In this document: positions 9,521 through 46,960 of the stretch, piece by piece
How the letters are laid out: every line of letters begins with the position of its first letter
Numbering within the stretch: position 1 is the first letter of the stretch
From: a virus
Reading direction: 5' to 3' (one strand)
DNA length: 46,960 nucleotides
IMG/VR virus record: IMGVR_UViG_3300045975_000024
Coordinates: 1 to 46,960 of that record
The notes under the pieces: generated by a model
What the model saw: only the letters and a program-made list of their open reading frames with translations
Told to the model about the DNA's origin: nothing
Databases searched by the model: none
Made by a program: the position numbers and the translations under genes

Positions 9521-9525
9521 TTAAG

Positions 9526-10113: not shown

Positions 10114-10907
10114 AATGACCTGGCCTTGCATGTTGCAGTGATCTTGCCGTCACCCAATCCCTCCCAGACCGCCTTGGTAGCCTTCACCATCGCCTCGAAC
10201 TCTTTGGGATTAAGCGACCATGCTGCGTCTATGCAGTTATCATCGAGCTTGATGTGTTTCTCGATCATCGCAACACCCAGGCAAGTAGCAGCCACAGCGA
10301 GATCGTGACCGGGAGTATGGTCACTAAGGCCCACAAGCTCGATGTCTGGTATGTCTCGCAGGGTGAGGATCGCCCTAAGATTGCCGTCCTCGACCTTCGC
10401 CGGATATTGCGCGACGCAATGGAGAAAGACGGCGGGTGCAAGCTTGACGTTGAGGTTTTCCACCTGCGCCAGTGAAGATAGCGCACCCGTTGAGATGATA
10501 ACGGGTTTCCCTGTTGCTGCGACGGCATTGACGATCTCCCCGCGTAATGCCTCGGGGCTTGCGATCTTGTAGCAAGGCACCTTCAGCGTTTCGAGAAAGT
10601 GAACCGCATCCACGCTGAACGGGCTGGAGAACGCAGCGATATGTGCCCATGCACAATGCTCGAATAGTTCTGCGTGCCACTCGCGCGGCGTCATGGCCCT
10701 CTCGTAGAGAGCCCAGAGTTCCTTGTTCTCCGGCTTGGTCAGGTCTGCCGGCACATACGTCTGAAACTTCACCGCATCGGCGCCAGCCTGCATGGCCGCA
10801 TCAATGAGGCTCTTGGCCTGCTTGATGTCGCCGTTATGATTGCAACTGATCTCGGCTACGATATAGGGCGGAAGCCTGTAGCTGATCTCACGCCCGCGGA
10901 TTTTCAC
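10110..10907 (-). CDS. NeuB/PseI-type nonulosonic acid synthase, lacking the SAF domain
   Basis: 265 residues. This family condenses a 6-carbon amino sugar with phosphoenolpyruvate to give a 9-carbon nonulosonate. TIM-barrel motifs are complete: A-E-I-S-C-N-H-N-G-D (18-27), A-D-A-V-K-F-Q-T-Y (43-51), Y-K-I-A-S-P-E, V-I-I-S-T-G, G-L-S-D-H-T-P-G and I-E-K-H-I. Family members run to about 340-350 residues with a C-terminal antifreeze-like SAF domain that closes the partner's active site. Here the protein stops right after A-R-S-L, where the SAF domain would begin. GTG start at 10907 overlaps the upstream stop as GTGA. Could make Pse, Leg or Neu-type sugars; context favours Pse-like. Confidence 0.88.
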   Translation of the reverse strand: MKIRGREISYRLPPYIVAEISCNHNGDIKQAKSLIDAAMQAGADAVKFQTYVPADLTKPENKELWALYERAMTPREWHAELFEHCAWAHIAAFSSPFSVDAVHFLETLKVPCYKIASPEALRGEIVNAVAATGKPVIISTGALSSLAQVENLNVKLAPAVFLHCVAQYPAKVEDGNLRAILTLRDIPDIELVGLSDHTPGHDLAVAATCLGVAMIEKHIKLDDNCIDAAWSLNPKEFEAMVKATKAVWEGLGDGKITATCKARSL

Positions 10908-11494
10908 TTGAACAATGGCGCCTGAGATAAGTCTGGATAATCGTCATTCGGCAGATCGTCATTATGCTTTGGCAGATAACTCATCCGCCAGAGGCCCTGC
11001 GCTGCAATCGGCGGGCTGAGATAAAAGTGCCAGCCAGGAGTTGAAAACGTATCCTCCTTAGGATGGGTGCCTTCAGTACGTCCGTCGAAGCGGGCTTTTC
11101 TGAACCACTTATCAGCTTCTTCATCCTCGTGAAGAATCGCCCCACCCTGGTCTAGCCCCAGTATCTTGGCGATGTGAAAAGACACACATTCATAACCGCC
11201 GCGATACATGCCAGAAGTGAATCGCCTAGCAGAGTCATAAATCGGGTAAGGATCAAGCCCGTAAGAGCCACGCCATTCTCTATCATCGAATTTTACTCTC
11301 CCGCCCGCGTTGACGATCGCCATAGGCACACCGACATAGGTGCGCTTGGGTATGCAGACTTCATTCACATTCAGATATTTGCAGCAGAGGAACAGCGCAT
11401 TGGTGCAGCTATTAACCGTTACTGCGTATCGTGCCCCGGTGTAGTTTGCGATCGCCCTCTCGAAGTCTCTAACAACCTCGAAGGCTCCGCTCAT
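10904..11494 (-). CDS. DegT/DnrJ/EryC1 sugar aminotransferase, short form
   Basis: 196 residues from an ATG that overlaps the upstream stop (ATGA). It holds the PLP-enzyme core of the DegT family: F-E-R-A-I-A-N-Y-T-G-A-R-Y-A-V at the start, Y-V-G-V-P-M-A-I-V-N-A-G-G, I-Y-D-S-A-R with the cofactor Asp at 87, and S-F-H-I-A-K with the likely Schiff-base Lys at 110. Normal members (PseC, LegC) are about 370-390 residues; this one lacks the C-terminal domain but ends in an ordered Y-P-D-L-S segment. Short relatives with this ending appear in other phage genomes, so it may be a genuine compact type. Expected to aminate the 4-keto sugar made by the dehydratase. Confidence 0.78.
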   Translation of the reverse strand: MSGAFEVVRDFERAIANYTGARYAVTVNSCTNALFLCCKYLNVNEVCIPKRTYVGVPMAIVNAGGRVKFDDREWRGSYGLDPYPIYDSARRFTSGMYRGGYECVSFHIAKILGLDQGGAILHEDEEADKWFRKARFDGRTEGTHPKEDTFSTPGWHFYLSPPIAAQGLWRMSYLPKHNDDLPNDDYPDLSQAPLFK

Positions 11495-11934
11495 ACATCC
11501 AGCCTGTAAGTGTATTGGCACAACTCGAAACCGAGAGAGCCAAAGAGTTTTATTGATTTGTCGTTAGCCGGGTTGATGTTGGCGAGATAGCGGCCAGGTC
11601 CATGCTTTTTGATGATTGCCGAGATTGCTTTCTTGCCGTAGCCAAATCCCTGATGCGCCTTGAATACAAACACCCCGATCTCATTCTGCTTACTGAGATA
11701 GCAGGCGCCCTTGATCCCGCCAGCCTCTATGAAATACCAAGCCCTATACGGGTTTGAGTTTACGAACTTCAGATGTTCGTCCCAGTCGGGTAATTCCCGA
11801 TGGGAGATGTTTACCGTTGGCTCCCTTTCCTTCATCAGCTCGTAGAGGATCTGGAGCCGATCGGGACGGGAGTAGACGTTCAGCAGGCTTACTGAAATAG
11901 GCGCAGATGGTTTTGTAGTCGTCCTCGGTGTCAA
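11491..11934 (-). CDS. GNAT N-acetyltransferase, PseH-like position
   Basis: Up to 147 residues. The GNAT fold is seen in N-I-S-H-R-E-L-P-D-W-D-E-H, W-Y-F-I-E-A-G-G, N-E-I-G-V-F-V-F and the acetyl-CoA loop H-Q-G-F-G-Y-G-K-K-A, ending N-P-A-N-D-K-S-I-K-L-F-G-S-L-G-F. In nonulosonate clusters this enzyme acetylates the new 4-amino group. The start is unsettled: TTG at 11934 keeps the family's N-terminal strand but overlaps the CMP-transferase gene by 191 bases; ATG at 11835 would remove the first strand. Ends with an ATGA overlap into the aminotransferase. Confidence 0.8.
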   Translation of the reverse strand: MTPRTTTKPSAPISVSLLNVYSRPDRLQILYELMKEREPTVNISHRELPDWDEHLKFVNSNPYRAWYFIEAGGIKGACYLSKQNEIGVFVFKAHQGFGYGKKAISAIIKKHGPGRYLANINPANDKSIKLFGSLGFELCQYTYRLDV

Positions 11935-12487
11935 GTGTTAGCCTTCCCTCCATCGTCCACGGTGACGCAACATTGACCCGCTTCACCCCCGGCTCTCTGA
12001 GCATCCATGTGGTGACATGCTCGCGGTCGTCCTCGTCGGCCTCTTTCTCGGCCCGGTTGAGTAGATCGCGGGTGAATACCTCGCAGTCATACCCTTGCGG
12101 GAATGTGCGTGGATGCACATTACTCGCATAGTCTGCGTAATCGTAGATTAGCCGCCCGAGAACAGCGCCGCACAACTCCGGAGAAATGAGGGGACAATCT
12201 GCGGTGATGCGTAGTATATTATCGGCACTGTAAACATAAGCTGCACTGTAATAGCGATGCAGTACGTCAGCCTCCGGCCCAGAGGTGACCGCACAGAGTT
12301 TGGCCGCTTCCTTCGCGACTTCGATGTCATGGGTCGGGACCGTGCAGACGACCTGGTTGACCCCCGGGATTTTCCAGCAGCGCGTGATGACTTCCGCGAG
12401 AACGGTGTGGCCGTTCAGTGGCAGTAGAACCTTCCCCGGTAGTCTTGTAGAGTTCTGTCGCGCCTGGATAATGCAGACGTTATTCAT
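11744..12487 (-). CDS. pseF: CMP-sugar cytidylyltransferase, SpsF/PseF type
   Basis: 247 residues from the ATG at 12487 (ATGA overlap with the dehydratase stop). The signature I-I-Q-A-R-Q-N-S-T-R-L-P-G-K-V-L (5-20) is the CTP-binding loop of SpsF/PseF enzymes, followed by I-T-A-D-C-P-L-I-S-P and L-T-L-D-T-E-D-D at the end of the fold. It would activate the nonulosonate as CMP-sugar for transfer. The fold normally ends shortly after the last motif; here about 45 more residues, basic and low in order, run out of frame through the start of the acetyltransferase gene. Confidence 0.85.
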   Translation of the reverse strand: MNNVCIIQARQNSTRLPGKVLLPLNGHTVLAEVITRCWKIPGVNQVVCTVPTHDIEVAKEAAKLCAVTSGPEADVLHRYYSAAYVYSADNILRITADCPLISPELCGAVLGRLIYDYADYASNVHPRTFPQGYDCEVFTRDLLNRAEKEADEDDREHVTTWMLREPGVKRVNVASPWTMEGRLTLDTEDDYKTICAYFSKPAERLLPSRSAPDPLRADEGKGANGKHLPSGITRLGRTSEVRKLKPV

Positions 12488-13305
12488 ACGCAGAGCAGAC
12501 CGTGCTGGAGTTCGAGACTGGTCATGCGCTTGGCGCGATCGGATGAGTTGCCCGGCCCCATCGACTCGTGCTTCTTCTCCCACTCGGGGAGGCCACGCAC
12601 ATCCATCTTCACCTTCATCACTTCCGCCAGGTCGCCAAGTCGATAAGCTGGCAATGTGGGGATGAGGATGTCGTCTCGGTCTGAATCAATGGCGTCGAGC
12701 ACGAGGTCAACGGCCTCGTCCTGGTACATCCAAAATCTGGTGCAGTCAGGGTCGGATACCGGGACGGACTTGGAGCCTGCTGCAATGAGCTGGCGCCATT
12801 TCGGAATAACTGAGCCGCGCGATCCAGCGATGTTTCCATAGCGTACAACTCGGAACACTGGTCCATCAGGTCCGGTCGTATGATTTGCATTGAGGAACAG
12901 TGCTTCCGCCAATGCCTTACTGTGTCCGTATGGAGAAACGGGCTCAAAAGCCTTATCACTTGAGAGAGCAACCACTCGCTTGACGCCTGCATCCATCGCC
13001 GCCTCGATGACATTCATCGCTCCGACTACATTGGTCTTGACCATCTCATTGGGATTGTAGTGACCAACCTCGATACGCTTGAGAGCGGCGGCATGAACCA
13101 CAACATCGACGCCCTCAAATGCGCGTCTCAGCCTGTCACGATCCCGAACGTCGCCGATGAAGAAGCGCATTCCGTCATCACAAAATTCCTCGGCCATCTC
13201 CGCCTGGGCATGCTCGCCCCGCGAGAAGATACAGATGCGCTGGAATTTGTGACGGGTTGCGTTGGTAAAGGCGCGGCCGAAGGTGCCGGTCCCGCCCGTA
13301 ATCAA
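12484..13305 (-). CDS. pseB: PseB-type UDP-N-acetylhexosamine 4,6-dehydratase (SDR)
   Basis: 273 residues of the extended SDR family. The NAD(P) loop T-G-G-T-G-T-F-G (3-10), the S-S-D-K segment (115-118) and the Y126-x-x-x-K130 pair are in place; T-G-G-T-G-S/T-F-G and H-A-A-A-L-K are typical of the inverting PseB/FlaA1 branch, not of LegB. This is the first step of the pathway, giving a 4-keto-6-deoxy sugar nucleotide. It is shorter than usual (about 330). No ATG fits: the start is a TTG at 13305 overlapping the upstream TGA as TTGA, with the first beta strand cut by a few residues. Confidence 0.85.
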   Translation of the reverse strand: MITGGTGTFGRAFTNATRHKFQRICIFSRGEHAQAEMAEEFCDDGMRFFIGDVRDRDRLRRAFEGVDVVVHAAALKRIEVGHYNPNEMVKTNVVGAMNVIEAAMDAGVKRVVALSSDKAFEPVSPYGHSKALAEALFLNANHTTGPDGPVFRVVRYGNIAGSRGSVIPKWRQLIAAGSKSVPVSDPDCTRFWMYQDEAVDLVLDAIDSDRDDILIPTLPAYRLGDLAEVMKVKMDVRGLPEWEKKHESMGPGNSSDRAKRMTSLELQHGLLCV

Positions 13306-14036
13306 ACACGAGCTGGAATGCCGTGATCGTTGAGATAGCGTGACGCACCTTTAGGTGTGAGTTCTCGGAACTGGAACATTGCTCCCGCCGCGACTGCATG
13401 GGCGCCGGCCTTCATCGCAAGGGTCATATCGTTGTATGAGCCGCAACCGCCGCAGGCTATGACGGGAATCGTGAGAGCGTTAGAGACGGCCGAGATAAGA
13501 TCTAGGTCATACCCCGTCATCGTGCCGTCACGCTCAATAGATGTCAGGAGGATTTCTCCTGCGCCCCTCGCCTCGCATTCTTTTGCCCATTCAACAGGAT
13601 CTCGCAGGGTGTCAATCCGTCCACAGTGCGTATTGACCGTTTTCTTGACATCAATGGAGATGACGACAGCCTGAGCCCCAAACCTCTGCGATGCTTCCTC
13701 GATAAGTTTAGGCGTTGCCGCAGTGCCCAACGCAACCTTGTCAGCCCCCACAGACAATAGGCGCCTGATGTCGCCAAGAGATCGAACACCGCCCCCGACA
13801 GTGATCGGGCAGAATACGTTGGAGAGCAGTTCCTTGATTTCATCAAATCTTGGAGGGCGGTTATTCGGTGTAGCACTGATGTCGAGGATTATGAGTTCAT
13901 CAATGTCGCGTCGCTCAAGCAGCCGAAGCCTGTCAGCCATCGAGCCTATGCGACGGCCCGGGTTGAACCCTTGTCCCTTGACGCATCCGTGCTCGTCCCA
14001 GAGAAGGACCGGTACGACTCTGGACTTGATGCCCAA
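13302..14036 (-). CDS. wbuZ: HisF-like amidation protein, WbuZ family
   Basis: 244 residues, a TIM-barrel related to imidazole glycerol phosphate synthase HisF. The opening R-V-V-P-V-L-L-W replaces the HisF P-C-L-D, so the first catalytic Asp is lost, as in the WbuZ group tied to sugar amidation. V-I-S-I-D-V retains the second Asp, and [14 protein letters not shown] and A-C-G-G-C-G phosphate loops are clear. In known systems WbuZ works with WbuX and a HisH-like glutaminase; no HisH-like gene is seen here. Start appears to be TTG at 14036, overlapping the upstream gene by 91 bases. Confidence 0.83.
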
Positions 14037-15091
14037 CTGGTTGTCTCTTTGTTTTCAAATCGGTCGCAGATTGCCCGATACTCTTGAACCGTGACGCCAA
14101 TCACTTCCAGAATTTCGTGAAGTGGCTTGCCGAGATAGGTGTAAGGCCACCTGCCGTCGCATTGCAGCGCGAGGATCATTCCCTCGTTGCGGGTCAGGTA
14201 GCCGCGGCGGATGTGATTGGATGCAACGTCAACGGTGCGGCCGTAGCCGAACTTGAGCCAGCGCAGATGGTCGTGGACGCCGGTCTGGTGGTTGTCTAGG
14301 TTTTCCCATTGGACGAAGTTGCCTTCGACCGGGGTTTGTTTCCAGGTGAAGCCGTGCTTTGCAGCGGCGGTCGCATTAGCACGACCATCCCAAGGGAAGT
14401 AGGCGCCCATGAAAAGCGCCTTAACTCCCTCGGAACCAGCATATCGATAACATCCCATTTCCGCCGGGTCGATTCCGAGGATTTCTGAGATGTCCGAGAC
14501 TCGTAATCCGAGCAGCCCGCCGAACTCATCAATCCAATCTTTCGTTAAATTGGTATTTGCCTCACTGCCTTGCGGCCCCGCCCCGTATTCGTTCTGCGGA
14601 CACTCTCCGTAGAGGACAACCGGGATATTGCGATTGACTGCTTCTCTTGCCGGCACCGACCATATCAGATGATGCTCGCACCAGGAAATATCCCCCACTT
14701 CCTCTAGTGCAAATTTCGAGATTCGTTTTCTGATTTCTCGGTTTGGAGTGATAACAACATGGTCGCAAAGGCGGCCAACATTGTCGAGATTTCTTCTTCC
14801 GAGATCTGAAAGATCGTCTGTGGTGGCCGTGACAGCGAGGGGTCTAAGGCCAAGCTCCAGGCATTTAATAATCTGCCAAGTCGAATCCTTGCCCCCCGAA
14901 CAAGCGACGATGACATCATGGCTCTTGCCTTTGTTCTCGCCTATGATCCGGAGAAATTCTTCTTCCTTGGCTTTCCAGTTGATTGTCGATCGCTTGTCGA
15001 ACGCCTGACAGGCCGAACAGATACCCTCGTCGTTGAAATGCAGGTCTGGTTTTGTATTGGGGTATAGGCAACGCCTGCAGCGAAACAGCAT
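13946..15091 (-). CDS. wbuX: N-acetyl sugar amidotransferase, WbuX/PseA family
   Basis: 381 residues from the ATG at 15091, chosen for the ribosome site aaaggtg and the family start with C5-x-x-C8 and C25-x-x-C28, a Cys4 zinc site. The PP-loop S-G-G-K-D-S (65-70) marks an ATP-pyrophosphatase that activates an acetamido group for conversion to acetamidino. PseA of Campylobacter, from the same family, converts pseudaminic acid to the acetamidino form. Length is normal (about 375-380). The last 30 residues are Ser-rich and overlap the WbuZ frame, unlike the usual ending. First gene of the cluster, downstream of a terminator. Confidence 0.87.
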   Translation of the reverse strand: MLFRCRRCLYPNTKPDLHFNDEGICSACQAFDKRSTINWKAKEEEFLRIIGENKGKSHDVIVACSGGKDSTWQIIKCLELGLRPLAVTATTDDLSDLGRRNLDNVGRLCDHVVITPNREIRKRISKFALEEVGDISWCEHHLIWSVPAREAVNRNIPVVLYGECPQNEYGAGPQGSEANTNLTKDWIDEFGGLLGLRVSDISEILGIDPAEMGCYRYAGSEGVKALFMGAYFPWDGRANATAAAKHGFTWKQTPVEGNFVQWENLDNHQTGVHDHLRWLKFGYGRTVDVASNHIRRGYLTRNEGMILALQCDGRWPYTYLGKPLHEILEVIGVTVQEYRAICDRFENKETTSWASSPESYRSFSGTSTDASRDKGSTRAVA

Positions 15092-15170
15092 GGGCACCTT
15101 TATGGGGTGGCGCGCAGCACTAGGGAGGGGGGTGGTTAGCACCGCGCGCCGTTTTCCAGGTTGCGACCCT

Positions 15171-15199
15171 AGAAAAGAAAAACCCGCCACTTGGGCGGG
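15171..15199 (-). terminator. Rho-independent terminator before the sugar cluster
   Basis: Read on the minus strand: stem CCCGCC (15199-15194), loop CAAGT, stem GGCGGG (15188-15183), then a T-rich tract TTTTTCTTTTCT (15182-15171). It lies between the last replication/regulatory gene (stop at 15242) and the first sugar gene (start 15091). It would end the Cro-replication transcript unless antitermination occurs, or insulate the cluster under its own promoter. Confidence 0.85.
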
Positions 15200-15241
15200 C
15201 AACGGCTATTGTGCCGAATCTAGGTGATTTGCCTCACGCGG

Positions 15242-22296: not shown

Positions 22297-22500
22297 ATGA
22301 ATGAAGCAGACACCCTTTTCGTGACGGATGCGGAGATGATCCGCCGCTTTGGCGTGCCGGAGAAGATCGCCCGTCATACCGTTAGGCAAATGGACGCCAA
22401 GCGAGTGGCGGGTTGGCCGCAGAAGCAAGCTCTGTGGGGAAATAGACGGTACTGGCCAGCGGTTGTGGCTTACCTTGACAGGAATGGGGGGCTAAAGTGA
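22297..22500 (+). CDS. Excisionase-like winged-helix protein
   Basis: 67 residues: F-V-T-D-A-E-M-I-R-R-F-G-V-P (8-21) forms the helix-turn-helix, followed by a wing and a W-G-N-R-R-Y-W-P-A-V-V-A-Y-L ending. This is the usual small DNA-binding gene located directly upstream of tyrosine integrases in Rhizobiales prophages and is likely the recombination directionality factor. Its TGA overlaps a GTG that leads into the integrase frame. Confidence 0.68.
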   Translation: MNEADTLFVTDAEMIRRFGVPEKIARHTVRQMDAKRVAGWPQKQALWGNRRYWPAVVAYLDRNGGLK

Positions 22501-22520
22501 TCGCCTCACAGGAGGTTGTC

Positions 22521-23741
22521 ATGCCGAAGATCGAGAACACTCCGGGGATCGCTTGGAGGAAGAACCAATATGGCCACGAGGCTCGCTGGCGCGCGAGGGC
22601 TGATCTTATAAGGCGTGGATTTGAACCGCTCAGCGTAAAACTGTGGGCTGCGACACATGAGCAGCCAGAGCCGGATGAGTTTGACGTGGCATTTATGCAA
22701 GACCGATGTAACGCCCTACAGAGCGAGATGCTTGCGTTTGCTCACGGCGGGCTGCCCGCAGCCGAGTTTGATGGCACGCTCGCCTCGCTCATTCGCTGCT
22801 ATCAGACCGACCCAGACTCCGCATATCGAGAGATTAGATATAAATCGCGCGGTCACTACGACACGCTCTTGCGGATGATCGGCCGCGATTGGCCAGGCGC
22901 GACTCTTGAGAAGATTGATCTGCGTTCCGTGAAGCGGTGGTATGAGAGCTATCGCGGCCAGGGCAAGATAGCGATGGGGCACTCGCTCGTTCGGATGCTT
23001 CGCACGGTAATCTCATTCGGAGCAAGGCTGCTTGAGTTGGAGCAGTGCTTGCGGCTTCAAAATGTCCTGAAGGATAAATTCAAGATGCCGAAGCCTAGAT
23101 CGTTACGGCTGACGGCAGACATGGCGGAAGCAATTATCGCAGAGGCGCACAAGCAGGGGCTGCCTATGGTTGCCTTTGCTCAAGCACTTCAATTTGAAAT
23201 GATGATCCGACAGAAGGACGTGATTGGGGAGTGGATACCGATCAGCGAGCCTGGGCTGTCGGCAGTCACTAATGGGAACGAAAAGTGGCTTAGGGGACTG
23301 GACTGGAAGGAAGTCGATGCCAACTTCGTCGTCACGCACGTCACGAGCAAAAGGCAAAAGCCGATCACGGTCGATCTCAGGCTGGCCCCGATGGTCATTC
23401 GAGAACTTCAGGGCATTGCGCGAAATCAATATCCGGCAACAGGGCCTATGGTTGTCGATAAGCGCAGCGGCCTACCGTACACCGACGCCTACTTCCGAAG
23501 AACTTGGCGAAAGATTGCAGACGTGGTTGGCGTCCCTAGAGAAGTCAAGAACATGGATACGCGGGCTGGAGCCATTTCTGAGGCTACCGACGCAGGGGCG
23601 CCGCTCGAACAAGTCCGCAAGGCGGCAACGCACTCGGACATCAGCATGACGCAGCGATACTCTCGCGGCGATACTGAGTCCATTGCAGTTGTGCAGCGAC
23701 TCCGCGTGGCGCACAGAACGAAAACCGATGATACACAATGA
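22521..23741 (+). CDS. int: Tyrosine-type phage integrase
   Basis: 406 residues from the ATG at 22521, which has an excellent ribosome site (aggaggttgtc). N-terminal SAM-like arm and core-binding parts, then the catalytic domain: F-E-M-M-I-R-Q-K-D-V-I-G (Arg I), T-S-K-R-Q-K-P-I (beta-hairpin Lys), M-D-T-R-A-G-A-I-S-E-A (Arg II box with Asp in place of the usual His), T-H-S-D-I-S-M-T-Q-R-Y (second His and nucleophile Tyr). Integrases with R-Q-K-D-V-I-G and D-T-R-A-G are typical of Rhizobiales prophages. It shows the phage to be temperate. Confidence 0.92.
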   Translation: MPKIENTPGIAWRKNQYGHEARWRARADLIRRGFEPLSVKLWAATHEQPEPDEFDVAFMQDRCNALQSEMLAFAHGGLPAAEFDGTLASLIRCYQTDPDSAYREIRYKSRGHYDTLLRMIGRDWPGATLEKIDLRSVKRWYESYRGQGKIAMGHSLVRMLRTVISFGARLLELEQCLRLQNVLKDKFKMPKPRSLRLTADMAEAIIAEAHKQGLPMVAFAQALQFEMMIRQKDVIGEWIPISEPGLSAVTNGNEKWLRGLDWKEVDANFVVTHVTSKRQKPITVDLRLAPMVIRELQGIARNQYPATGPMVVDKRSGLPYTDAYFRRTWRKIADVVGVPREVKNMDTRAGAISEATDAGAPLEQVRKAATHSDISMTQRYSRGDTESIAVVQRLRVAHRTKTDDTQ

Positions 23742-25240: not shown

Positions 25241-25969
25241 TTAGCAGGACAGCGTTGAATACCTGCGCCCAGACCCCGCCGGCAGACCAGCCTCGATCGT
25301 GGTGCTCTCAACAATAAGGGACGGATGGACAGTCCGGCGGGCGATGTCGAGATAGGATTCGTCCCTGCGGCCGGTGAGCTGGAAGATCCCGGTCTTGCCC
25401 ATCAATGAGTAAATCGTCTCGCAGACCTTGCCGATGTCGACGGGGGCTATGTGGAGGTCGCTGAAGGCAAGGATGGGTTTGCCGGAGCGCCATTCCTTCA
25501 GGATGGGGAGCTCGCCGCAGACCACCTTGCCTAGCCGCAGGATTCCGACCGGGAGTCCCCGCTCCATCCGCAGCATCAGGAGACGTTCGGCCAGGGCTTT
25601 CTGCCGGCCATACTCGCTGACGGGGCTGTGGGGGGAGTTGACGGGAACGTGCGGGATCGAACCATCGAACACATGATTGCTCGAGATGAACAGGGTGGGG
25701 ATGCCTCGCCAGAGCAGCTTGTCGGCCAGAGCTACAGTGCCCCAGACATTGACCTGTGAGGTGCCGTGCGGGTCATCCGCGCAGGCTTTGAGGGAGGTGA
25801 TTGCGGCGAAGATACAGGCTGCGGTTATTCCGGGGGGTGGTTTCCAGTCGCCTATATCGGAGAGGTCGAGGAATGGAGGTCTGCGGCGGGAGGTGGCAAT
25901 GGCGGGGACGGTGCAGCAACTGTACGCCGCTGAACCGATCTGGGAGTCGCCGCCCACGAACAGCCACAT
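25241..25969 (-). CDS. RmlD-like sugar-nucleotide reductase (SDR)
   Basis: 242 residues of the RmlD substrate-binding type: Rossmann start F-V-G-G-D-S-Q-I-G (4-12), I-S-S-N-H-V-F-D-G, then S-E-Y-G-R-Q-K-A-L-A-E with the Y-x-x-x-K pair, and a C-terminal V-D-I-G-K-V-C-E-T-I. RmlD reduces dTDP-4-keto-rhamnose; this may act on another 4-keto sugar. Last gene of the late operon, over 9 kb from the sugar cluster, yet likely linked to it. TGATG overlap with the upstream membrane gene. Shorter than RmlD (about 295). Confidence 0.75.
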   Translation of the reverse strand: MWLFVGGDSQIGSAAYSCCTVPAIATSRRRPPFLDLSDIGDWKPPPGITAACIFAAITSLKACADDPHGTSQVNVWGTVALADKLLWRGIPTLFISSNHVFDGSIPHVPVNSPHSPVSEYGRQKALAERLLMLRMERGLPVGILRLGKVVCGELPILKEWRSGKPILAFSDLHIAPVDIGKVCETIYSLMGKTGIFQLTGRRDESYLDIARRTVHPSLIVESTTIEAGLPAGSGRRYSTLSC

Positions 25970-34560: not shown

Positions 34561-35511
34561 CTAGGAGATGTTGAAGTTTGCGGCCATTGCAGTATTGGCC
34601 CCGGCCGGAGTCTGTGCAGAGAACGAGTAACAGCCGACGATGTTGGTTACGCTGTCATTGCTGACCGTGATGTCGTCGCCGAACTCGCAGACCGAGAACA
34701 TGGTCGCCTTGGCGTTCGTCAGAATAACGGGGCTGCTGAACACGCAATGCGAGAACCCCGTGATGGCGTGCGACTTGTCACCGTCATCTATGGCAAGGCT
34801 TGCAGAGACGAACGACCCGGAGAAGTCGCACAAATCGAAATGGTTCTCCACGGTGCCAGTAGCACCGTCCATGCCTACTCCAAAGTTGACAGCCGAGCCT
34901 GAGTCATCGAACTTGCAGCGGATGTACCAGTTGGCTGCCGCGCCCGTGGAATAGAGGTGCCCGCCCGCCGTAGCCCACCCGGAGATGAAACAGTTATCCA
35001 GACAGCCATCCACGCCGCGCATCCGCACGGCATAAAGTCCACCCCAGATGTAGCAGTCCCGGAAAAATATCTTGGCGTTGACGGCCGTATCGACCGCATA
35101 GGTTGTCGCAGAGGCATTGGTGTACCCAGCGACGAACAGGTCGCGCATCCCGCCGTCGGCCTCAAAATCAAACACCGTAAAGTCTGCGCTCTGCCCGCTT
35201 ACGAGCGTGACATGCACGCCGGCCCCAACGAGCGTGATCCCGTTGGGAACTGTTATTGTTGACGTGACCGTGTAGTTGCCGGCCGGGAAGAACACCAGCC
35301 CATCCGCATCGTCGATGGCGGCCTGGATGGCAGTCGTGCTGTCACCCGCCGCACTCGGGTCTGCGCCGTAGTCCGTCACAATCTTGTAAACGTCAGAGCC
35401 GCTTTCCTCGGACTCGCCAGTCAGATTGGCAACGTCAGAGGCGATGTCCTCAAGAAACGACCTCACCTCCGAACTCATGTCCGGATCTCTCGGGACGCGA
35501 GGTTTTGCCAT
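34561..35511 (-). CDS. Beta-helix tailspike, pectate-lyase-like
   Basis: 316 residues. After a short helical head-binding part, V-T-D-Y-G-A-D-P-S-A-A-G-D-S-T-T-A-I-Q-A-A-I (about 45-67) is the classic entry of Pectate_lyase_3 beta-helices, followed by F-F-P-A-G-N-Y-T-V and a ladder of short strands with Asn, Gly and Ser. Such spikes bind and often cut surface polysaccharides. Active-site residues cannot be chosen by eye. Shares one base with the gp10-like gene stop. Confidence 0.83.
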   Translation of the reverse strand: MAKPRVPRDPDMSSEVRSFLEDIASDVANLTGESEESGSDVYKIVTDYGADPSAAGDSTTAIQAAIDDADGLVFFPAGNYTVTSTITVPNGITLVGAGVHVTLVSGQSADFTVFDFEADGGMRDLFVAGYTNASATTYAVDTAVNAKIFFRDCYIWGGLYAVRMRGVDGCLDNCFISGWATAGGHLYSTGAAANWYIRCKFDDSGSAVNFGVGMDGATGTVENHFDLCDFSGSFVSASLAIDDGDKSHAITGFSHCVFSSPVILTNAKATMFSVCEFGDDITVSNDSVTNIVGCYSFSAQTPAGANTAMAANFNIS

Positions 35512-36917
35512 TATTTCTTCAGTCTGCGGATCTGAACGTCACAGCCGACAATGGCGCGGGCCACCGGGTCGGAAATCCTCAGCCTTATAACAAGACCCTT
35601 GGGGCCGAACTTGCCGAGGTTGCGTGCGGTGACGCGCGTTGCGTACTTGCCCTGGATGCCGAGGGAGAGCTCGCGGTACTGCTGGAAGGTGTTGCCGCCA
35701 TCCTTGGAGAGTTCGAGCATGACCAACGGGTCTGAGCCCTGCCCTGAGAGCGTGCCATAGCCGGTGGCAAGGTCGAGATGAATGGCATCAATGATCCCGC
35801 CATCAGGGAATACATGCAGCGGGGGGGAGTCGACGCCCCACACCATGATGTCGTCAAACTCTGTGAAGGTGTCCTTGTCGAAGTAACCGAGCTTGCCGGA
35901 GAGGGCGTCACCGATCATCACGCGGTTCCAGGCATGCGCCGTGAAGCGCCCACGCCAACGGTCCTGCGCGTAGGTCTGCCGCTCGTGCCATACCTTGGTT
36001 ACGGAGTCATAGGTGCGCGACCAGTCCGTCCCGGTCATGGTGGAGAAGGCGTGGCCATCGTGCGTCCACGCAAAGCCGATGGCGTCAGACGAACTCGTAT
36101 CCGCAGATATAATTCTTTCGACGGCGTGGGTCGAGATGCGCTCCGGGTCGTAGTTGTTGAGGCGATAGACGACCCCATCATCCCCGATCCAGTGCAGCGT
36201 TCCAGCCGACTTGTGGACCGAGTTTGGAGCAAGGACGCCACGAGACCGGAACGAGATGGGCGAGAATGGGAAGTCGGCGTTTCCCGTGTCGCGCCAGAAC
36301 TCCATCCATGACGAGCAGAAGCCGACGATCTCGCCCGCGTTCTCTGCTATGCGGAGTAGCTTTCCGGCCTTCTGCTGGAAGGTCGAGAAGTCCAGCGCAT
36401 CCCATAACAGCGAAGTGTTGATGCCGGAGAGCGTGAAGGTGCGGTCCTCCTGCCCGACGATCGTATACCCCGAAGCATAGTCCGCCGTGATTATGTCAGT
36501 CGGCAAGTCTGCATCGGTGATGGAGTTCACCGCATCAGACGACACGACGTAACAGGCCGCATCGGTCTTTACAAAAATTTCCGGGTCGGCCTTCTGGTTG
36601 CGCGACATCTGCACCATGTCGATGCCGGGAATGGTCCCGACCCTGGTGGTGGTGAATGTCGTGCCGTCGAAAGTCGTTTTCCAGATGCTTGAGGAATGGA
36701 CGGTATAGAGTTTGTCCAGATCCTCCATGTAGATCATGCCACGGCACGGCCCCGTCGCGTCGTCTGACGCCTCTATGATCCCATCGGAGGGGACAACCGA
36801 AAGGGGGGCTTTCGCGTCCTTCCCGCGCTTCTCGGCATAGGCGTTAATCAGCCGGGGAATGCCCTCGAATGCAAACTCGCCCTCATTTGACTGGAACGCT
36901 ACTAACGCGCGGCTCAA
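35511..36917 (-). CDS. Tail hub / packaged DNA stabilisation protein, P22 gp10-like
   Basis: 468 residues, the size of P22 gp10 (472). N-L-x-Y-A-E-K-type start (R-L-I-N-A-Y-A-E-K), followed by repeated Trp-containing strands (W-D-A-L-D-F-S, W-M-E-F-W, L-H-W-I-G-D-D, W-H-E-R-Q-T-Y), as in the beta-propeller gp10 that closes the portal vestibule and carries the spikes. It supports a P22-type tail. The homing endonuclease gene overlaps its start by four bases. Confidence 0.85.
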   Translation of the reverse strand: MSRALVAFQSNEGEFAFEGIPRLINAYAEKRGKDAKAPLSVVPSDGIIEASDDATGPCRGMIYMEDLDKLYTVHSSSIWKTTFDGTTFTTTRVGTIPGIDMVQMSRNQKADPEIFVKTDAACYVVSSDAVNSITDADLPTDIITADYASGYTIVGQEDRTFTLSGINTSLLWDALDFSTFQQKAGKLLRIAENAGEIVGFCSSWMEFWRDTGNADFPFSPISFRSRGVLAPNSVHKSAGTLHWIGDDGVVYRLNNYDPERISTHAVERIISADTSSSDAIGFAWTHDGHAFSTMTGTDWSRTYDSVTKVWHERQTYAQDRWRGRFTAHAWNRVMIGDALSGKLGYFDKDTFTEFDDIMVWGVDSPPLHVFPDGGIIDAIHLDLATGYGTLSGQGSDPLVMLELSKDGGNTFQQYRELSLGIQGKYATRVTARNLGKFGPKGLVIRLRISDPVARAIVGCDVQIRRLKK

Positions 36918-37405
36918 GTGAGCCTCACGAACTCGCCAAAGTATTTTTTGGCTGCTTGGTCATAGACAAATTTTGCGTCCTCTTTCGATTCAAAGACGCC
37001 AAGTTCTGTGTGATTTCCGTTGACTAGAATCTGGGCGCGCCATCCCTTGGGTTTGTTGCACCAGCTAACGCCACGGTATCCAGATTTATTGTCTTTTCTC
37101 AGTTTTTGATTTGCGTTCTGCTCTGTTTGCGTGGCTTCACGCAGATTGCACCAGCGATTATCTGAGGGGTCTGCATTGATATGATCAATATAGGGCTTTG
37201 TCGGCCACCCCCCAGTCATGTAAAACCATGCAAGGCGATGCGCCATATAAGACTTGAAGTCTATGCTTATCTGGACATATCCCGGCTTGGTCGTGTGCCC
37301 CATTATTTCCCCGACCGCAGCGCCCTTTGTGGCCTCTTTGCGCGTGAACTCTCCGGTCGCCGGATCATATTTGGCAACCTCTTTAAGCCTCTCAATAGTA
37401 AGCAT
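36914..37405 (-). CDS. HNH-AP2 homing endonuclease
   Basis: 163 residues. HNH core: Y-I-D-H-I-N-A-D-P-S-D-N-R-W-C-N-L-R (catalytic His and Asn), followed by a linker and an AP2-like DNA-binding domain, S-G-Y-R-G-V-S-W and W-R-A-Q-I. This is the layout of free-standing mobile endonucleases in phages. It sits in the middle of the structural operon without a visible intron, sharing bases with both neighbours, and is probably a selfish insertion. Confidence 0.88.
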   Translation of the reverse strand: MLTIERLKEVAKYDPATGEFTRKEATKGAAVGEIMGHTTKPGYVQISIDFKSYMAHRLAWFYMTGGWPTKPYIDHINADPSDNRWCNLREATQTEQNANQKLRKDNKSGYRGVSWCNKPKGWRAQILVNGNHTELGVFESKEDAKFVYDQAAKKYFGEFVRLT

Positions 37406-37752
37406 CAGAAATACTGACCGGCGGCAACGTCATAACTGGGCATGGCAGCACAGATCGCTCTTAGCGTTCCTTCCTGCGCCATGACATCGGCATCGCTCGG
37501 GCGAGGGCCGCCAGCAGTCGGGATCAGGAACATCGCCATGTAATCTGCAAGCGGGTCGAACAATTCCTGCGGCACGGTATCCGGAGTCCATCCCCACATA
37601 TTCAGGCCACGCACCTGCAGGGATGACAGCCGCGATGTGTATGTCTTGGTCGCGAGGTCTAATTGCTCGCTTGATGGCGTCTCGTCATCGCCAAGCAGCC
37701 CGGCCCTGCGAAGAGCATGGGTAACGGTCTGCGTCTCGGTATAGGTCGTCAT
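37405..37752 (-). CDS. Head-tail adaptor, P22 gp4-like
   Basis: 115 residues, helical: T-V-T-H-A-L-R-R-A-G-L-L-G-D-D-E-T-P-S (9-27), a common opening of gp4-like tail accessory proteins, with L-Q-V-R-G-L-N-M-W and a late helix. It connects the portal to gp10. Overlaps the gene before by four bases (ATGA). Order gp4, gp10, spike and ejection proteins follows the P22 plan apart from the endonuclease insert. Confidence 0.78.
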   Translation of the reverse strand: MTTYTETQTVTHALRRAGLLGDDETPSSEQLDLATKTYTSRLSSLQVRGLNMWGWTPDTVPQELFDPLADYMAMFLIPTAGGPRPSDADVMAQEGTLRAICAAMPSYDVAAGQYF

Positions 37753-38573
37753 CGTCCGTCGGCTTCCATCATGTAGCGTTCATAGTTGCCGGAGTTCATC
37801 GCCTCTGCGACAAGCGACTGCATAAGACCCTCGCCATAGATCGTGACCTGAAGCGGGTCTTTGCCCCTTGACCACTCCACCATCTGCTCCACGAACTCGC
37901 AGGCTTGCGACATCATCGGGCGCGTCGTCTTGAAATCCTGCCCGTTGGCATGGCCCCAGACCCAATGACCAGGGAGTTCGCCACCGTGGACGTGAGTCTT
38001 GTGAGTAAATGAGGAGTCGCCACCAAATACATGCACGTCACGGAATCCGAGGACGTAAGCAAGATTGGGGGCTCGGGAGAGCATGGTGGATCCCCCGTGA
38101 ACGGGGACGGCACCGAATGGCTGTTTAATCTGCCCATCGGCCATGAACCAAAGTCTGACATTGCGCTCCTTGAGATGGTCGAACACGCAAGGGTGGGTTT
38201 GAGAGGCTAGGTAGTAGGTCACATCCTCCGGAATATTGGGCAGGCACTCCTTGAGGAACCATTCCGGGTCGCCTCCGACGAAGGCCGTGGGCTTGATCTC
38301 ACGGTGCCGCATCCACTCGAAGGCTCTGTTAATTCCCCAAATCTCTCCGTCCCACTCCTTGAGCATGTCGACGTAATCGGTGACGGACGGCCCAGACGCT
38401 ACGATCGCTACCTTGCCCTTGCGTTTCTTCCGCCAATGGACCCTTGGGAGATTACGGGCGGCAGCACTGTCAATATGTTTTTGACGGTCATCCTGGTTCG
38501 CTACGCAGTCAATCTCGAAGATCTGGTCGATCGTGCCTTCCGGCTTGACCTGCTTAAGCTGCAGTTCTTGCAT
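37749..38573 (-). CDS. DUF115 (Maf-like) glycosyltransferase, copy 2
   Basis: 274 residues from the ATG at 38573; the open frame upstream is Arg/Ser-rich and unlikely. Core motifs of DUF115: V-A-I-V-A-S-G-P-S-V (56-64), I-W-G-I-N-R-A, F-V-G-G-D-P (98-103), and H-G-G-S-T-M-L-S-R-A-P and F-G-G-D-S-S-F further on. Maf proteins with this domain transfer pseudaminic or legionaminic acid to flagellin in Campylobacter, Helicobacter and others. The copy at 39542 is a paralogue. Located in a virion operon, so a virion target is likely by inference. Confidence 0.8.
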   Translation of the reverse strand: MQELQLKQVKPEGTIDQIFEIDCVANQDDRQKHIDSAAARNLPRVHWRKKRKGKVAIVASGPSVTDYVDMLKEWDGEIWGINRAFEWMRHREIKPTAFVGGDPEWFLKECLPNIPEDVTYYLASQTHPCVFDHLKERNVRLWFMADGQIKQPFGAVPVHGGSTMLSRAPNLAYVLGFRDVHVFGGDSSFTHKTHVHGGELPGHWVWGHANGQDFKTTRPMMSQACEFVEQMVEWSRGKDPLQVTIYGEGLMQSLVAEAMNSGNYERYMMEADGR

Positions 38574-39504
38574 TGAGCTCGAAGGCTTTCTTGATGGTTG
38601 AGCAGATTTCCTCGGGGGTGTTGTCGACCACCTCGATCTGCGTACAGACGTTATACATCTTAGGCCAGTCCATCCCGTCCCACATGTGGCAGGTACGCCA
38701 GTCCTCGAGGACTTGCCCCTTGTATTTGACGCGCTTGATGCGGCAGACCCGGAAGAACGGCGTCGGCTTCGAGTTCGCCATGTAGGGGAACCAGTTGATC
38801 CCGACACCGGGGACGTTCAGTGCGGAGGCGCAAGTTGTGATTCCGGTAGCCTGCCCAGCATAAAGCTTGCAGTTGGCGAGGATGTATAGGTCCGCGAGAT
38901 CGGGATTTTGCAGGCTCCCGCGGATTGTAGCGTAGTCCACTAGATTGGGGTGCGAATACGCACCGTCGGCGTCTGCGCCAAGGCGCACTGCTTTCAACCC
39001 GACTTTACGCAGCCATTCGATGGTCTCGAAGTAGTCATCGAACTTCATGTTGCGCTTTAACTGGTACGGGGAGAGTTGATCCTCATGCCCCCACCAGATG
39101 CCGCGCTCCCTGAACATGGGTCCGTGACGCAGTTTAGAGTATTTCATGTCGCGGGCGTGGAGACAGACGTACTTGCCTTTCTCCAGACCTAGCTTCTTGA
39201 GGATTGCCTCGCCCTCAGCCTCTTCTTCCTCGTTGAACTTCGTCTCGACGGGAAGCGTCCAGACGTGAGGGTCGTCATAGATGTAGATGCGCGAGAGACA
39301 CGCATCGAGCCATTCCTGGTACTTTATGAAATACCGCCTGACGAATGCGGGGACTCTGAGGAATGTCGCCCGCCTGCGGTGGATTTTATAAAGCGCCTTG
39401 TTGGGGACCACGCTGCCGATGATGTAGAGCAGTTTCCCCTTGTTCATCCGCATGTCGTACTCGACATCTCCGGCCTGATGCCCGAAGTGATCAGGGTAGA
39501 GCAT
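38554..39504 (-). CDS. TIGR04372-like glycosyltransferase
   Basis: 316 residues from ATG 39504; the frame is open to 39600, and a TTG at 39558 is possible. Y-V-C-L-H-A-R-D-M-K-Y (about 145-155 from the chosen start), a D-Y-F-E-T-I-E-W-L-R-K-V-G-L-K-A-V-R-L-G segment and D-L-Y-I-L-A-N-C-K-L-Y-A-G-Q-A-T-G fit the GT-B-like TIGR04372 family, placed in surface glycan clusters. It lies between the two DUF115 genes and overlaps the second by 20 bases. Sugar and acceptor unknown. Confidence 0.7.
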   Translation of the reverse strand: MLYPDHFGHQAGDVEYDMRMNKGKLLYIIGSVVPNKALYKIHRRRATFLRVPAFVRRYFIKYQEWLDACLSRIYIYDDPHVWTLPVETKFNEEEEAEGEAILKKLGLEKGKYVCLHARDMKYSKLRHGPMFRERGIWWGHEDQLSPYQLKRNMKFDDYFETIEWLRKVGLKAVRLGADADGAYSHPNLVDYATIRGSLQNPDLADLYILANCKLYAGQATGITTCASALNVPGVGINWFPYMANSKPTPFFRVCRIKRVKYKGQVLEDWRTCHMWDGMDWPKMYNVCTQIEVVDNTPEEICSTIKKAFELNARTAA

Positions 39505-39541
39505 CACCGAGTAGCCGAGGCGATGGGCAATCCAGAGGAAA

Positions 39542-40369
39542 CTATTGAGAGGCCACAATCTCGCCGTTCTCAAGTTCGAGCGGCGCTTTGAGATATGCAT
39601 CCATTAGTCCATGACATCTGATGTTGAACTTTACGCCCCATGTCTGGTGCGTATGCATGACGCCCAGTTGGCTTACTTGTTGCAGCAGGGGGGTTTCCGT
39701 GAAGAACGGCCCCTTCCCGTCTGTAGTCACAACCCGTTTAATCTCCGCCTTTGAGTCCTCCGGATATGTGTTGTCCTCGTAGCAGTAGCGCCCCAACATG
39801 ACAGGCCAGCCGTCATCCAAGAACCTCACGTCGTAGGATGAATCCGCTCCGTACAGTGTTACGTCCTTGAACCCGAGTGTGCGTGCGAGAAATGGCGCGC
39901 GCGATATTGCGGTCGTACCTCCAGGAATGAGGTCTGTCCCCTTGAGCAGATCATCCGGGAACCGAACCGAATCCTGCTGCGGGAACCAGACCTGCACGTT
40001 CCGGTCCTTGAGCGTTTCGTAGACTGCTTCGTCACACAGCCCGGAGATGTAGCAGGTCGTCTCCTTCGCGATCCTCGTAACGTAGGCCGCAAGGCCGGGC
40101 AGGGGATCGGTCCCGAAGAACCCGCTCGGTGTGATGCCCCGATCAAGCAAAAAATTATACGCCCCGTTGATGGCCCAGATATGCTCGTAGGTCTTGATCT
40201 CGTCGATGAAGTCCTTCACGGACGGGCCAGCGGCTACAACGGCTAACCGCTCTCCCGCCCGCTCGGGACTTTCCTTGCAGTAAGACAGGTTGCGAGCGAG
40301 AACCTTACGCAGATTCCGCTCGCAACCCTCGTCATCAACAACACACTTACTGTCGATCGTGACAAGCAT
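39542..40369 (-). CDS. DUF115 (Maf-like) glycosyltransferase, copy 1
   Basis: 275 residues. L-A-V-V-A-A-G-P-S-V (42-51), I-W-A-I-N-G-A, F-F-G-T-D-P (84-89), P-G-G-T-T-A-I-S-R-A-P and Y-G-A-D-S-S-Y align with the copy at 37749 block by block. The G-P-S loop is thought to contact the nucleotide in the family. It starts at the last base of the preceding probable decoration protein's stop, so it is made together with capsid proteins. Acts likely in the cytoplasm on newly made proteins. Confidence 0.8.
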   Translation of the reverse strand: MLVTIDSKCVVDDEGCERNLRKVLARNLSYCKESPERAGERLAVVAAGPSVKDFIDEIKTYEHIWAINGAYNFLLDRGITPSGFFGTDPLPGLAAYVTRIAKETTCYISGLCDEAVYETLKDRNVQVWFPQQDSVRFPDDLLKGTDLIPGGTTAISRAPFLARTLGFKDVTLYGADSSYDVRFLDDGWPVMLGRYCYEDNTYPEDSKAEIKRVVTTDGKGPFFTETPLLQQVSQLGVMHTHQTWGVKFNIRCHGLMDAYLKAPLELENGEIVASQ

Positions 40370-40899
40370 TAAGAGTGTTGTGCCTGGTAGTAGTCGATGT
40401 AGAGGTTGAACGTGCCGGTGGTGAGCCGGAACGTCGAAGCGCCTACGGTGACGTAAGCGTTCGTCTCATCGGTCGTCAGCAACGGGCCTTCCGAGAACAG
40501 AAGCGATCCGAGTGGGATGTTTCGCTTGCTGCCAAGGGAAATGCCGCTCTGCAGCGCCAGCACGTCCGAGCCGAGCACCCAGTTGGATGCCAGCGCGTTG
40601 GACGTGGACGATGCGGATACGGTCGTGCCCGCCGGTGTGACAACGGCTTTGTCGAGACCGATGTTGATCGAGAGTAGGCCGGAGCCCACGCTCGTATCCT
40701 CAAGAGCATCGCCGGTGACGCGCCCGCCGAGAATCAGTGCCCCTTTCGGGAGTTTGCACATGATGATCGTGTCGGCCGCGGCCGGAACGCCTGTTGCACC
40801 CCATTCAAAGGTGCCCCAGGCCGTCTTGATGTCTTGAGCCCAACCGGACGCAGCAGAAGGTCGACCCGCGGCTGCGCGAGTAGTCGTATAAACAGCCAT
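40369..40899 (-). CDS. Probable capsid decoration protein
   Basis: 176 residues, Ser/Thr/Ala-rich, beta-strand pattern without Cys clusters (one Cys). Preceded by aaggaggcg, one of the best ribosome sites in the genome, which fits a protein made in large amounts. It follows the major capsid gene by 12 bases. Many Ser/Thr (T-V-S-A-S-S-T-S-N-A) could serve as sugar acceptor sites. Decoration or head-completion role from position only. Confidence 0.65.
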   Translation of the reverse strand: MAVYTTTRAAAGRPSAASGWAQDIKTAWGTFEWGATGVPAAADTIIMCKLPKGALILGGRVTGDALEDTSVGSGLLSINIGLDKAVVTPAGTTVSASSTSNALASNWVLGSDVLALQSGISLGSKRNIPLGSLLFSEGPLLTTDETNAYVTVGASTFRLTTGTFNLYIDYYQAQHS

Positions 40900-40911: not shown

Positions 40912-42162
40912 TTATGAGTCTTTAGCTGCGTAGAAGAAGCCGGTGACGACGCCCCATTGTGTGAGCGAACTCGCCCCGCCGCCGGTGTTATTGCCGGATG
41001 CGGATGAGTTGAGCACACTAGGCGCGACGTACATCGAACCCTTCTTGAACATCTTGCCGACGCCGTAGGCCATCTCGATGCCCGTGCCGGTGATGAACCC
41101 GTAGTCGTCCTCTTTGCGGAACGTTGGCTTGGCCATCTGCCCGTAGGCAACGACGGCGGCCTGTTGACCGCAGAGGAATACAGGTTCGGTACGGCCCGAA
41201 CTCGATGAAGCCGACTGGGTGCTGGACCCGCCCCATGTGCCGGCGGCCGTGGCCATTCCGGTCCATGTGTTGTCGACAAAGGTCGAGATCTCCGGGACTT
41301 TCCGGATAATCACGCCGTCGTAAACAAGGTCGCCATCCTGGAAGATCGGGTTTGAGTCAACGTCCCGAGGCCGCGCATCACGGTTGGCCTGGTAGATGAC
41401 CGCATCGTTCTTCGCATCGCGGAACGCATATGTTCCCGCGAACAGGACGTAATACTCATATCCATCCCGCGTCTTGTACGGGCGGATTTTTGGCGAGCAC
41501 AATTCCGCGCGCCGCTTGAGCATTTGCACCGTTGTCGAGGTAAGTTTGACAGATGCAACAACCGAGATGGCCGAGCCGAACGAGGCCAGCGTGGTGCCGC
41601 TCTGGTGATTGGAAACAGCGTTTCCAAACAGAACGCGGTCCTGGTTGTCGGCCAGCCACGCAGTACGCTGCGCGGAGGTCGCCAACTCCCACTGGACGCC
41701 GTTGACCCGCTGCCCTTCTTCCGTTCCCAGGTTCGCCGGGGCGGATTCGGAAGGGATCGCCATGAAACCCGCGATGAGTTCATCGCGCTGAAGTTCCTTG
41801 CCGCGATCCGAGAGAAGCGACTTGGCCTCTCCGAAGATGTCGGCGGAATCCTTCTGGTTCTCGGCTTTGGTCGTGACTACCGCATGGCGGAACCAGTCGA
41901 TCCAGACCCGCATGCCGTAGTTGTCGATGCGCTCCTCGGCGCCCGCCAACGTTCCCGTTGACTTGCCGATACCGGAGAGCTTGGTGACGAGCGGAATATT
42001 CATCTGCTCGCCGCCGGATTTCAACTCCTGACGCACGCGGATGATGGCATCGAGCCCTTCACCCATGTACGGGGAGAACAAGTTCTGACGCACGAACTCG
42101 CGGTTGATGTCCCGCGTGAACTGGATCAGCTTGTTGTTTGATTGGACTGTAGTGACCGCCAT
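40912..42162 (-). CDS. Major capsid protein, N4-gp56/DUF4043 family
   Basis: 416 residues. N-arm, then I-P-L-V-T-K-L-S-G-I-G-K (about 55-67), an A-G-A-E-E-R-I-D-N-Y stretch and W-I-D-W-F-R-H-A-V, diagnostic for this HK97-fold capsid family. The C-terminal region contains an exposed-looking Ser-rich insert (S-S-T-Q-S-A-S-S-S-S-G-R, about 320-332). Strong ribosome site agaaaggag. Preceded by the scaffold, as usual. The Ser-rich loop is a candidate site for glycosylation. Confidence 0.88.
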   Translation of the reverse strand: MAVTTVQSNNKLIQFTRDINREFVRQNLFSPYMGEGLDAIIRVRQELKSGGEQMNIPLVTKLSGIGKSTGTLAGAEERIDNYGMRVWIDWFRHAVVTTKAENQKDSADIFGEAKSLLSDRGKELQRDELIAGFMAIPSESAPANLGTEEGQRVNGVQWELATSAQRTAWLADNQDRVLFGNAVSNHQSGTTLASFGSAISVVASVKLTSTTVQMLKRRAELCSPKIRPYKTRDGYEYYVLFAGTYAFRDAKNDAVIYQANRDARPRDVDSNPIFQDGDLVYDGVIIRKVPEISTFVDNTWTGMATAAGTWGGSSTQSASSSSGRTEPVFLCGQQAAVVAYGQMAKPTFRKEDDYGFITGTGIEMAYGVGKMFKKGSMYVAPSVLNSSASGNNTGGGASSLTQWGVVTGFFYAAKDS

Positions 42163-46464: not shown

Positions 46465-46960
46465 TCAGGGCGGGTCGGTAGGCGCCTGCGTTATGGTCCC
46501 GTTTGCGGTAAAGTTTCCGCCGGAACCGTTATTTGTCGGCCACGCGCCAACCAAACCGTGCAGATAAAGAATAGGCTGCGACCCGGTTGGGGTTGACCCG
46601 TCCGAGCCAAGACTGGCTGGGGCGCCACCAGCAGTCCTGAATTTCTGAAGGTTCGTCGCGTTACTAAGGTCTATTGCTTCAGCTTCATTAAAATATAAAA
46701 ACGCCAAATCGCCATTAAAAAATGATGCGGCCGCGAAGGTATTGTTTGCGCCGACGCCCGTAGTGTCAACATTGGTGTCATAGGCAAGATTTATATCGCC
46801 AGCACTGTCGCCACCAGCCTTTACGGAAGATCCGTCAATATACATAAAATTTGCGGATGTTCCGGTTGCCACATCCCATGATGAAGCAAAATGATGCCAT
46901 GTGCTATCTGCGGTATAGGTGCCAGAACTCGTCATCAAAACTCTATTGGTGCCGCCGGTG
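46465..46960 (-). CDS. LamG/concanavalin-like adhesin, C-terminal part
   Basis: Continuation of the gene that starts at 409 across the circular join. This part holds the rest of the lectin-like fold (W-H-H-F-A-S-S-W-D, F-M-Y-I-D-G-S, D-L-A-F-L-Y-F-N-E) and a Gly/Ser/Asn-rich end (N-N-G-S-G-G-N-F-T). In this linear window it has no start; within the 104-base overlap the residue encoded at 46947 is Asn where the left copy has Asp. Confidence 0.8.
   Translation of the reverse strand, partial: TGGTNRVLMTSSGTYTADSTWHHFASSWDVATGTSANFMYIDGSSVKAGGDSAGDINLAYDTNVDTTGVGANNTFAAASFFNGDLAFLYFNEAEAIDLSNATNLQKFRTAGGAPASLGSDGSTPTGSQPILYLHGLVGAWPTNNGSGGNFTANGTITQAPTDPP
46857..46960. repeat. Terminal redundancy, right copy
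   Basis: Same 104 bases as 1-104 with T at 46947 for C at 91. Marks the overlap of a circular map. Confidence 0.93.

Follow-up and report, generated by a model that had tools for sequence, protein, structure and literature searches.

A pair of Maf-like DUF115 proteins in the head operon of a P22-like phage as candidate virion glycosyltransferases

Why would a phage carry two DUF115 genes and a glycosyltransferase gene amid the genes for its head, and a sugar cassette elsewhere in the same genome? We sought an answer in a virus record of 46,960 nucleotides, the whole of which is hereafter called the window. The record carries P22-like genes (TerL, portal, coat, gp10-like, spike and ejection-type proteins) and the phage is a P22-like podovirus; since it encodes an integrase, it is probably temperate. 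The genes outside the region of interest that serve as landmarks are:

1182-3401, portal
3402-4874, TerL
22497-23741, integrase
34561-35511, short pectate-lyase-type spike
35511-36917, gp10-like head-closure protein
36914-37405, HNH/AP2 endonuclease, a possible homing enzyme, inserted between gp10 and the adaptor-like gene

The window ends (1-409 and 46465-46960) form a candidate junction, which the gene order of a relative (G002) suggests to be a cut inside the late operon between the portal and scaffold genes (circular permutation). A 6607 bp contig from another metagenome (L088) shares the radical SAM and hexapeptide genes with the window and encodes an identical TerL (100%), so this phage is present in more than one sample. 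Searching with TerL for a host returned distant prophages only (identity at most 42%), and the genome contigs searched with DUF115 gave no bacterial relatives.

The head operon runs in the order coat, cement, DUFa, GT, DUFb, adaptor-like gene, HNH/AP2 endonuclease and gp10, with overlaps of 1-59 bases between successive genes from cement through gp10. Its genes around the DUF115 pair are:

40912-42162 (-), major head (coat) protein, P22-like, possible acceptor (phrog_334 1.9e-52; Pam1 coat 7eel_A 5e-44)
40369-40899 (-), cement (decoration) protein, alternative putative acceptor (Pam1 cement 7eel_H: Foldseek 1.4e-7 with a modest cement model, pLDDT 68; profile 8.5e-7)
39542-40369 (-), DUFa, Maf-like DUF115 protein, 275 aa (PF01973 3.5e-14)
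38554-39600 (-), GT, TIGR04372-type glycosyltransferase, 348 aa (TIGR04372 1.9e-26)
37749-38573 (-), DUFb, Maf-like DUF115 protein, 274 aa (PF01973 3.8e-12)
37405-37752 (-), head-tail adaptor-like protein bounding the insertion (position as in Pam1; homologues in relatives)

The PF01973 scores of DUFa and DUFb and the TIGR04372 score of GT all exceed the curated cut-offs. The DUFb ORF covers 37749-38807, with the ATG at 38573 as the likely start of the shorter 274 aa protein. All three genes of the original prediction, a DUF115 pair flanking a glycosyltransferase after the capsid and decoration genes, were thus confirmed, and the decoration protein proved to be a homologue of Pam1 cement. Cyanophage Pam1 shares the gene order TerL-portal-scaffold-coat-cement-adaptor-needle-head and has coat and cement proteins homologous to those of the window, but its cement runs directly into the adaptor with zero genes separating them; we therefore take DUFa-GT-DUFb to have been inserted into a head operon that is otherwise conserved. 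What virion glycosylation would lead one to look for, phage-encoded transferase genes in the head operon, was found here as overlapping genes from cement to adaptor. The core role first given to GT was overstated, as it is absent from every relative with the DUF115 pair and was found in none of the relatives among all loci fetched; on this distribution, GT appears to be an accessory extra specific to the window phage.

Finding such genes in other phages depended on the query. DUFa or GT alone against viral contigs, and DUFa, DUFb or GT alone against phage records, gave zero matches; an alignment restricted to the two paralogues did no better, and one of seven sequences succeeded. The 42 viral loci examined were fetched solely by DUF115 similarity (a few are near-duplicates), and in 34 of them a coat gene ends 208-1744 bp upstream of the DUF115 match. 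Three PHROG families are represented among these coats, 334 (that of the window), 9953 and 283, so the proposed search for other phages with DUF115 beside capsid genes was successful. In the reverse search, starting from the coats, DUF115 occupied that place in phrog_9953 phages at 30 of 67 loci and in phrog_283 phages at 6 of 57. The DUF115 tree sorts by coat family, and among phrog_334 phages DUFa and DUFb form two groups (support 1.0 and 0.999) whose joining node is weak (0.525). A tree that follows the coat is expected for an enzyme fitted to the coat; the same pattern would arise if the whole head operon had descended as a unit.

The capsid-side place might instead be a tolerated cargo slot, with the pair and the cassette acting, in the lysogen or during infection, to modify the host surface (flagellin, LPS or capsule) and so causing serotype conversion or phage exclusion. 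Free cargo need not sit beside the coat in three families or have a tree that follows it, and since the DUF115 genes overlap head genes they should be made late. Nor was a flippase or polymerase recognised among the window ORFs scanned. Although the phage has an integrase, phage-borne Acinetobacter enzymes that alter host-capsule nonulosonates are known (PMC12053666, PMC6586298), and relatives without DUF115 have a cement-adaptor slot that is empty or filled with small genes or other sugar or methyl transferases (L012, L028, L029), we consider this explanation unlikely. DUF115 is missing from the head operon of many close relatives and so is no general requirement for assembly. The glycosyltransferase-like or methyltransferase genes in the slots of such relatives lie at L012:11713-13886, L027:7661-8978, L028:6956-8823 and L029:11590-12300, and since the slot can hold sugar or methyl transferase genes, it seems to be a hot spot for such modifying enzymes. 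In our preferred reading, glycosylation of head proteins, the target of the DUF115 pair lies in the virion head, which we regard as fairly likely.

The candidate source of the sugar is a nonulosonate cassette that spans 7540-15202:

13946-15202 (-), N-acetyl sugar amidotransferase WbuX, acetamidino group (TIGR03573 1.9e-69)
13302-14036 (-), HisF-like partner WbuZ (TIGR03572 3.8e-72)
12484-13305 (-), PseB-like UDP-GlcNAc 4,6-dehydratase (TIGR03589 1.1e-88, below equivalog cut-off)
11744-12487 (-), cytidylyltransferase, CMP activation (PF02348 1.3e-18; probable start within ORF 11744-12583)
11491-11934 (-), GNAT acetyltransferase, putative PseH-like role (PF00583 2e-6)
10904-11521 (-), compact DegT aminotransferase, 205 aa, putative PseC-like role (PF01041 1.5e-18)
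10110-10907 (-), NeuB/PseI nonulosonate synthase (PF03102 3.5e-60; TIGR03586 1.2e-74, below equivalog cut-off)
9526-10131 (-), pseudaminic-acid-associated methylase (TIGR03587 7.7e-38, above cut-off)
8936-9520 (-), second methyltransferase (PF13578 5.9e-8)
8465-8935 (-), hexapeptide-repeat acetyltransferase (PF00132 1.6e-19)
7540-8475 (-), radical SAM/SPASM protein, end of cassette (PF04055 6.7e-16, PF13186 9.2e-12)

Homologues of PseB, PseC, PseH, PseI and PseF are all present, with PseB and PseI below their equivalog cut-offs and PseH a generic GNAT protein. The earlier description of the locus as a full make-and-attach set goes too far: the PseC-type aminotransferase is compact, NeuB is short, without the C-terminal part of full-length PseI, and PseG (TIGR03590) gave no match at E up to 1 in seven records (the window and six related ones). 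The pathway is therefore not complete by itself, and a host enzyme could fill the PseG step. Judging by the family names, the product is likely a CMP-activated acid of the pseudaminic type that bears acetamidino and methyl groups. Compact DegT aminotransferases (about 205-265 aa, with much of the C-terminal part missing) recur in nonulosonate cassettes of different phages; besides 10904-11521 of the window, they were located at L043:8468-9262, L090:3640-4425 and L182:13704-14342, and are found in G002 and G059 as well. The radical SAM/SPASM gene is missing from G002. An RmlD/epimerase-like protein of the window (25241-25969) lies beyond the tail genes, distant from the sugar cassette.

NeuB elsewhere in the same phage as DUF115, the other object of the proposed search, was encountered more often than expected. 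Among phage records of at least 20 kb with DUF115, 6 of 31 carry NeuB (the window, G002, G045, G046, G059 and G130) versus 0 of 79 records without DUF115, where for the 41 later records of the 79 the absence of DUF115 was judged only over roughly 2.2 kb on the downstream side of the coat. The association has a Fisher p of 3.4e-4, or 4e-3 leaving out the window and G002, both values being optimistic because the records are related. In G002 (43 kb, other metagenome), eight cassette genes lie upstream of TerL and the order cement-DUFa-DUFb is the same, without GT; L004 has PseB and a methylase directly before TerL, and DUFa and DUFb after cement. G045 and G046, which belong to another coat family, have DUF115 beside the coat and NeuB, WbuZ and WbuX-like genes on the same contig (their NeuA and NeuC names were read by eye from sequence), and the cassette of G059 resembles that of the window.

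NeuB is nevertheless missing from 25 of the 31 DUF115 records, and G035 (43 kb) has the DUF115 pair without the cassette; the host must therefore often supply the donor. How this could work is shown by a Clostridium Maf that accepts Neu5Ac and Kdo (PMC11339370). The same observations would suit DUF115 proteins that glycosylate virion proteins with some other donor, such as host CMP-Kdo, the cassette being a separate acquisition with another purpose. That NeuB occurs in our sample only alongside DUF115, and that the window yielded no further recognisable nonulosonate transferase, make such a separation quite unlikely. Returning to glycosylation of head proteins by the phage's own pathway, we regard it as likely that the sugar is a nonulosonate in the case of the window phage.

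We then turned to the fold of the DUF115 proteins, of which DUFa and DUFb are 31% identical to one another. A DUFb model from 33 phage sequences (pLDDT 91) had as its best solved match the Magnetospirillum Maf flagellin glycosyltransferase 5mu5 (Foldseek E 9.1e-10, TMq 0.61, 280 alignment columns), followed by M. jannaschii HPPK (MptE; 2.4e-5, TMq 0.41) and next, with weak scores, by human sialyltransferases. Sequence profiles ranked the candidates alike (Maf 5mu5 3.8e-11, MptE 2.7e-6, Cst-II 0.6), Cst-II being the sialyltransferase that the central domain of Maf resembles (PMC11339370). The Maf match spans the whole length of the DUF115 protein, and the model consists of the central domain and a short tail; the N-terminal Rossmann-like and C-terminal helical domains of Maf are absent, and the whole-Maf equivalog FlagModPseD gives phage DUF115 21.5 of 670 bits. 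The central PF01973 domain has a Maf-type fold and HPPK is not the closer match. Since the phage DUF115 proteins are the central Maf domain alone, we term them Maf-like, an assignment that we consider very probable and that agrees with what had been predicted: in this check, set beforehand, Maf came ahead of HPPK in both fold and profile. An MptE-like diphosphokinase or other non-sugar-transfer activity, for example in head assembly, is very unlikely even though Pfam names PF01973 MptE-like and HPPK is the second structural match, because Maf outscores HPPK over the full length, no pterin genes were recognised nearby and a nonulosonate cassette co-occurs; fold and profile led us to reject an MptE-like pterin enzyme. 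Two other DUFb proteins (L003:12616-13467 and L002:4560-5456) carry at the C-terminus a short basic motif, NRKQRR or NRKDRR, that is absent from the window copy.

Maf enzymes put nonulosonates on surface Ser/Thr with no sequon needed (PMC11339370). Two inserts in the coat of the window phage are of interest as acceptors:

40978-41031 (-), Ser/Thr-rich coat loop YVAPSVLNSSASGNNTGG, residues 378-395, candidate glycosylation site (putative role)
41206-41247 (-), second Ser-rich coat insert AAGTWGGSSTQSAS, window phage only

A C-terminal-proximal coat insert of 19-24 residues, 29-47% of them Ser/Thr, was present in 6 of 6 pair-bearing coats, which may be one clade, versus 0 of 15 coats of relatives without DUF115. 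On this association, the Ser/Thr-rich loop is the best candidate glycosylation site. Overall Ser/Thr of the coat was slightly higher with DUF115 in the two other coat families (p 0.017 and 0.025, relatedness not controlled), and in phrog_9953 a C-terminal loop was seen by eye in 14 of 25 DUF115 coats versus 1 of 9 others (p 0.023, relatedness not controlled). These tests appear to point the same way as phrog_334, and we regard them as supportive but weak. Cement is longer in DUF115 phages (p 1e-4); its Ser/Thr content is not higher there (p 0.46) and no Ser/Thr-rich insert was found in the cement proteins of DUF115 phages, which sets it back as the obvious acceptor, and we keep it as an alternative.

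Fold, overlapping operon, capsid linkage over coat families, NeuB co-occurrence and loop association were each computed, and from them we infer an enzyme activity, donor, acceptor, timing and purpose. DUFa and DUFb would each be a CMP-nonulosonate transferase of the Maf type with a single domain, its gene sharing the late operon with those of the head proteins. The phage cassette, probably together with a host PseG-type hydrolase, would make a CMP-activated pseudaminic-type acid, probably with an acetamidino and a methyl group. The DUF115 proteins would then act in the cytoplasm, attaching this sugar to Ser/Thr residues of head proteins during the synthesis of the latter, most likely to those of the Ser/Thr-rich C-terminal coat loop or alternatively to those of cement. 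The presence of two paralogues may suggest two acceptors or two sites, and the TIGR04372 enzyme would serve to lengthen or diversify the glycan, in the window phage only. O-glycosylation of head proteins by the DUF115 pair, with a pseudaminic-type acid as the sugar, is a joint claim whose component steps are not independent; as a whole, we find it moderately probable. We see an even chance for the broader proposal that DUF115 proteins encoded next to capsid genes form a family, widespread in phages, of nonulosonate transferases that are specific for the coat and adapted to it as Maf, which is inactive on non-cognate flagellins (PMC11339370), is to flagellin, and that some phages use their own pathway to decorate virions with sialic-acid-like sugars.

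Glycosylation of phage heads is so far known in few phages. If our reading is true, a Maf-like transferase tied to the coat in three families would mean that this trait is common among environmental podoviruses and can be predicted, and DUF115 beside a coat gene would be a simple marker for glycosylated phages. Negatively charged, sialic-acid-like sugars on the head could affect adsorption, stability, host defence and antibody recognition. The phage DUF115 proteins would also offer small single-domain Maf relatives for study. In the open literature searched, we met no account of phage DUF115 proteins acting as transferases linked to the capsid, or of capsid glycosylation with nonulosonates by phages, which is not proof of absence.

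The closest known system is that of mycobacteriophages Che8 and Rita, whose major capsid proteins are reported to be glycosylated by phage-encoded transferases (PMC11256854), as we propose for the window phage. As far as could be read, Maf-like enzymes or a phage-encoded nonulosonate pathway are not evident there. The Acinetobacter prophage enzymes are likewise phage gene products acting on pseudaminic or legionaminic acid, but they alter host capsule sugars and do not make a new virion nonulosonate (PMC12053666, PMC6586298). The Maf flagellin glycosyltransferases of Campylobacter, Aeromonas, Clostridium and Magnetospirillum share the PF01973 core, give the best profile and fold match and have pseudaminic-type acid genes in the same genome as the transferase. 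Unlike the Maf proteins of at least 600 aa, the phage proteins have about 275 aa and the central domain only, and they adjoin capsid genes rather than flagellin, with a virion protein as the putative acceptor.
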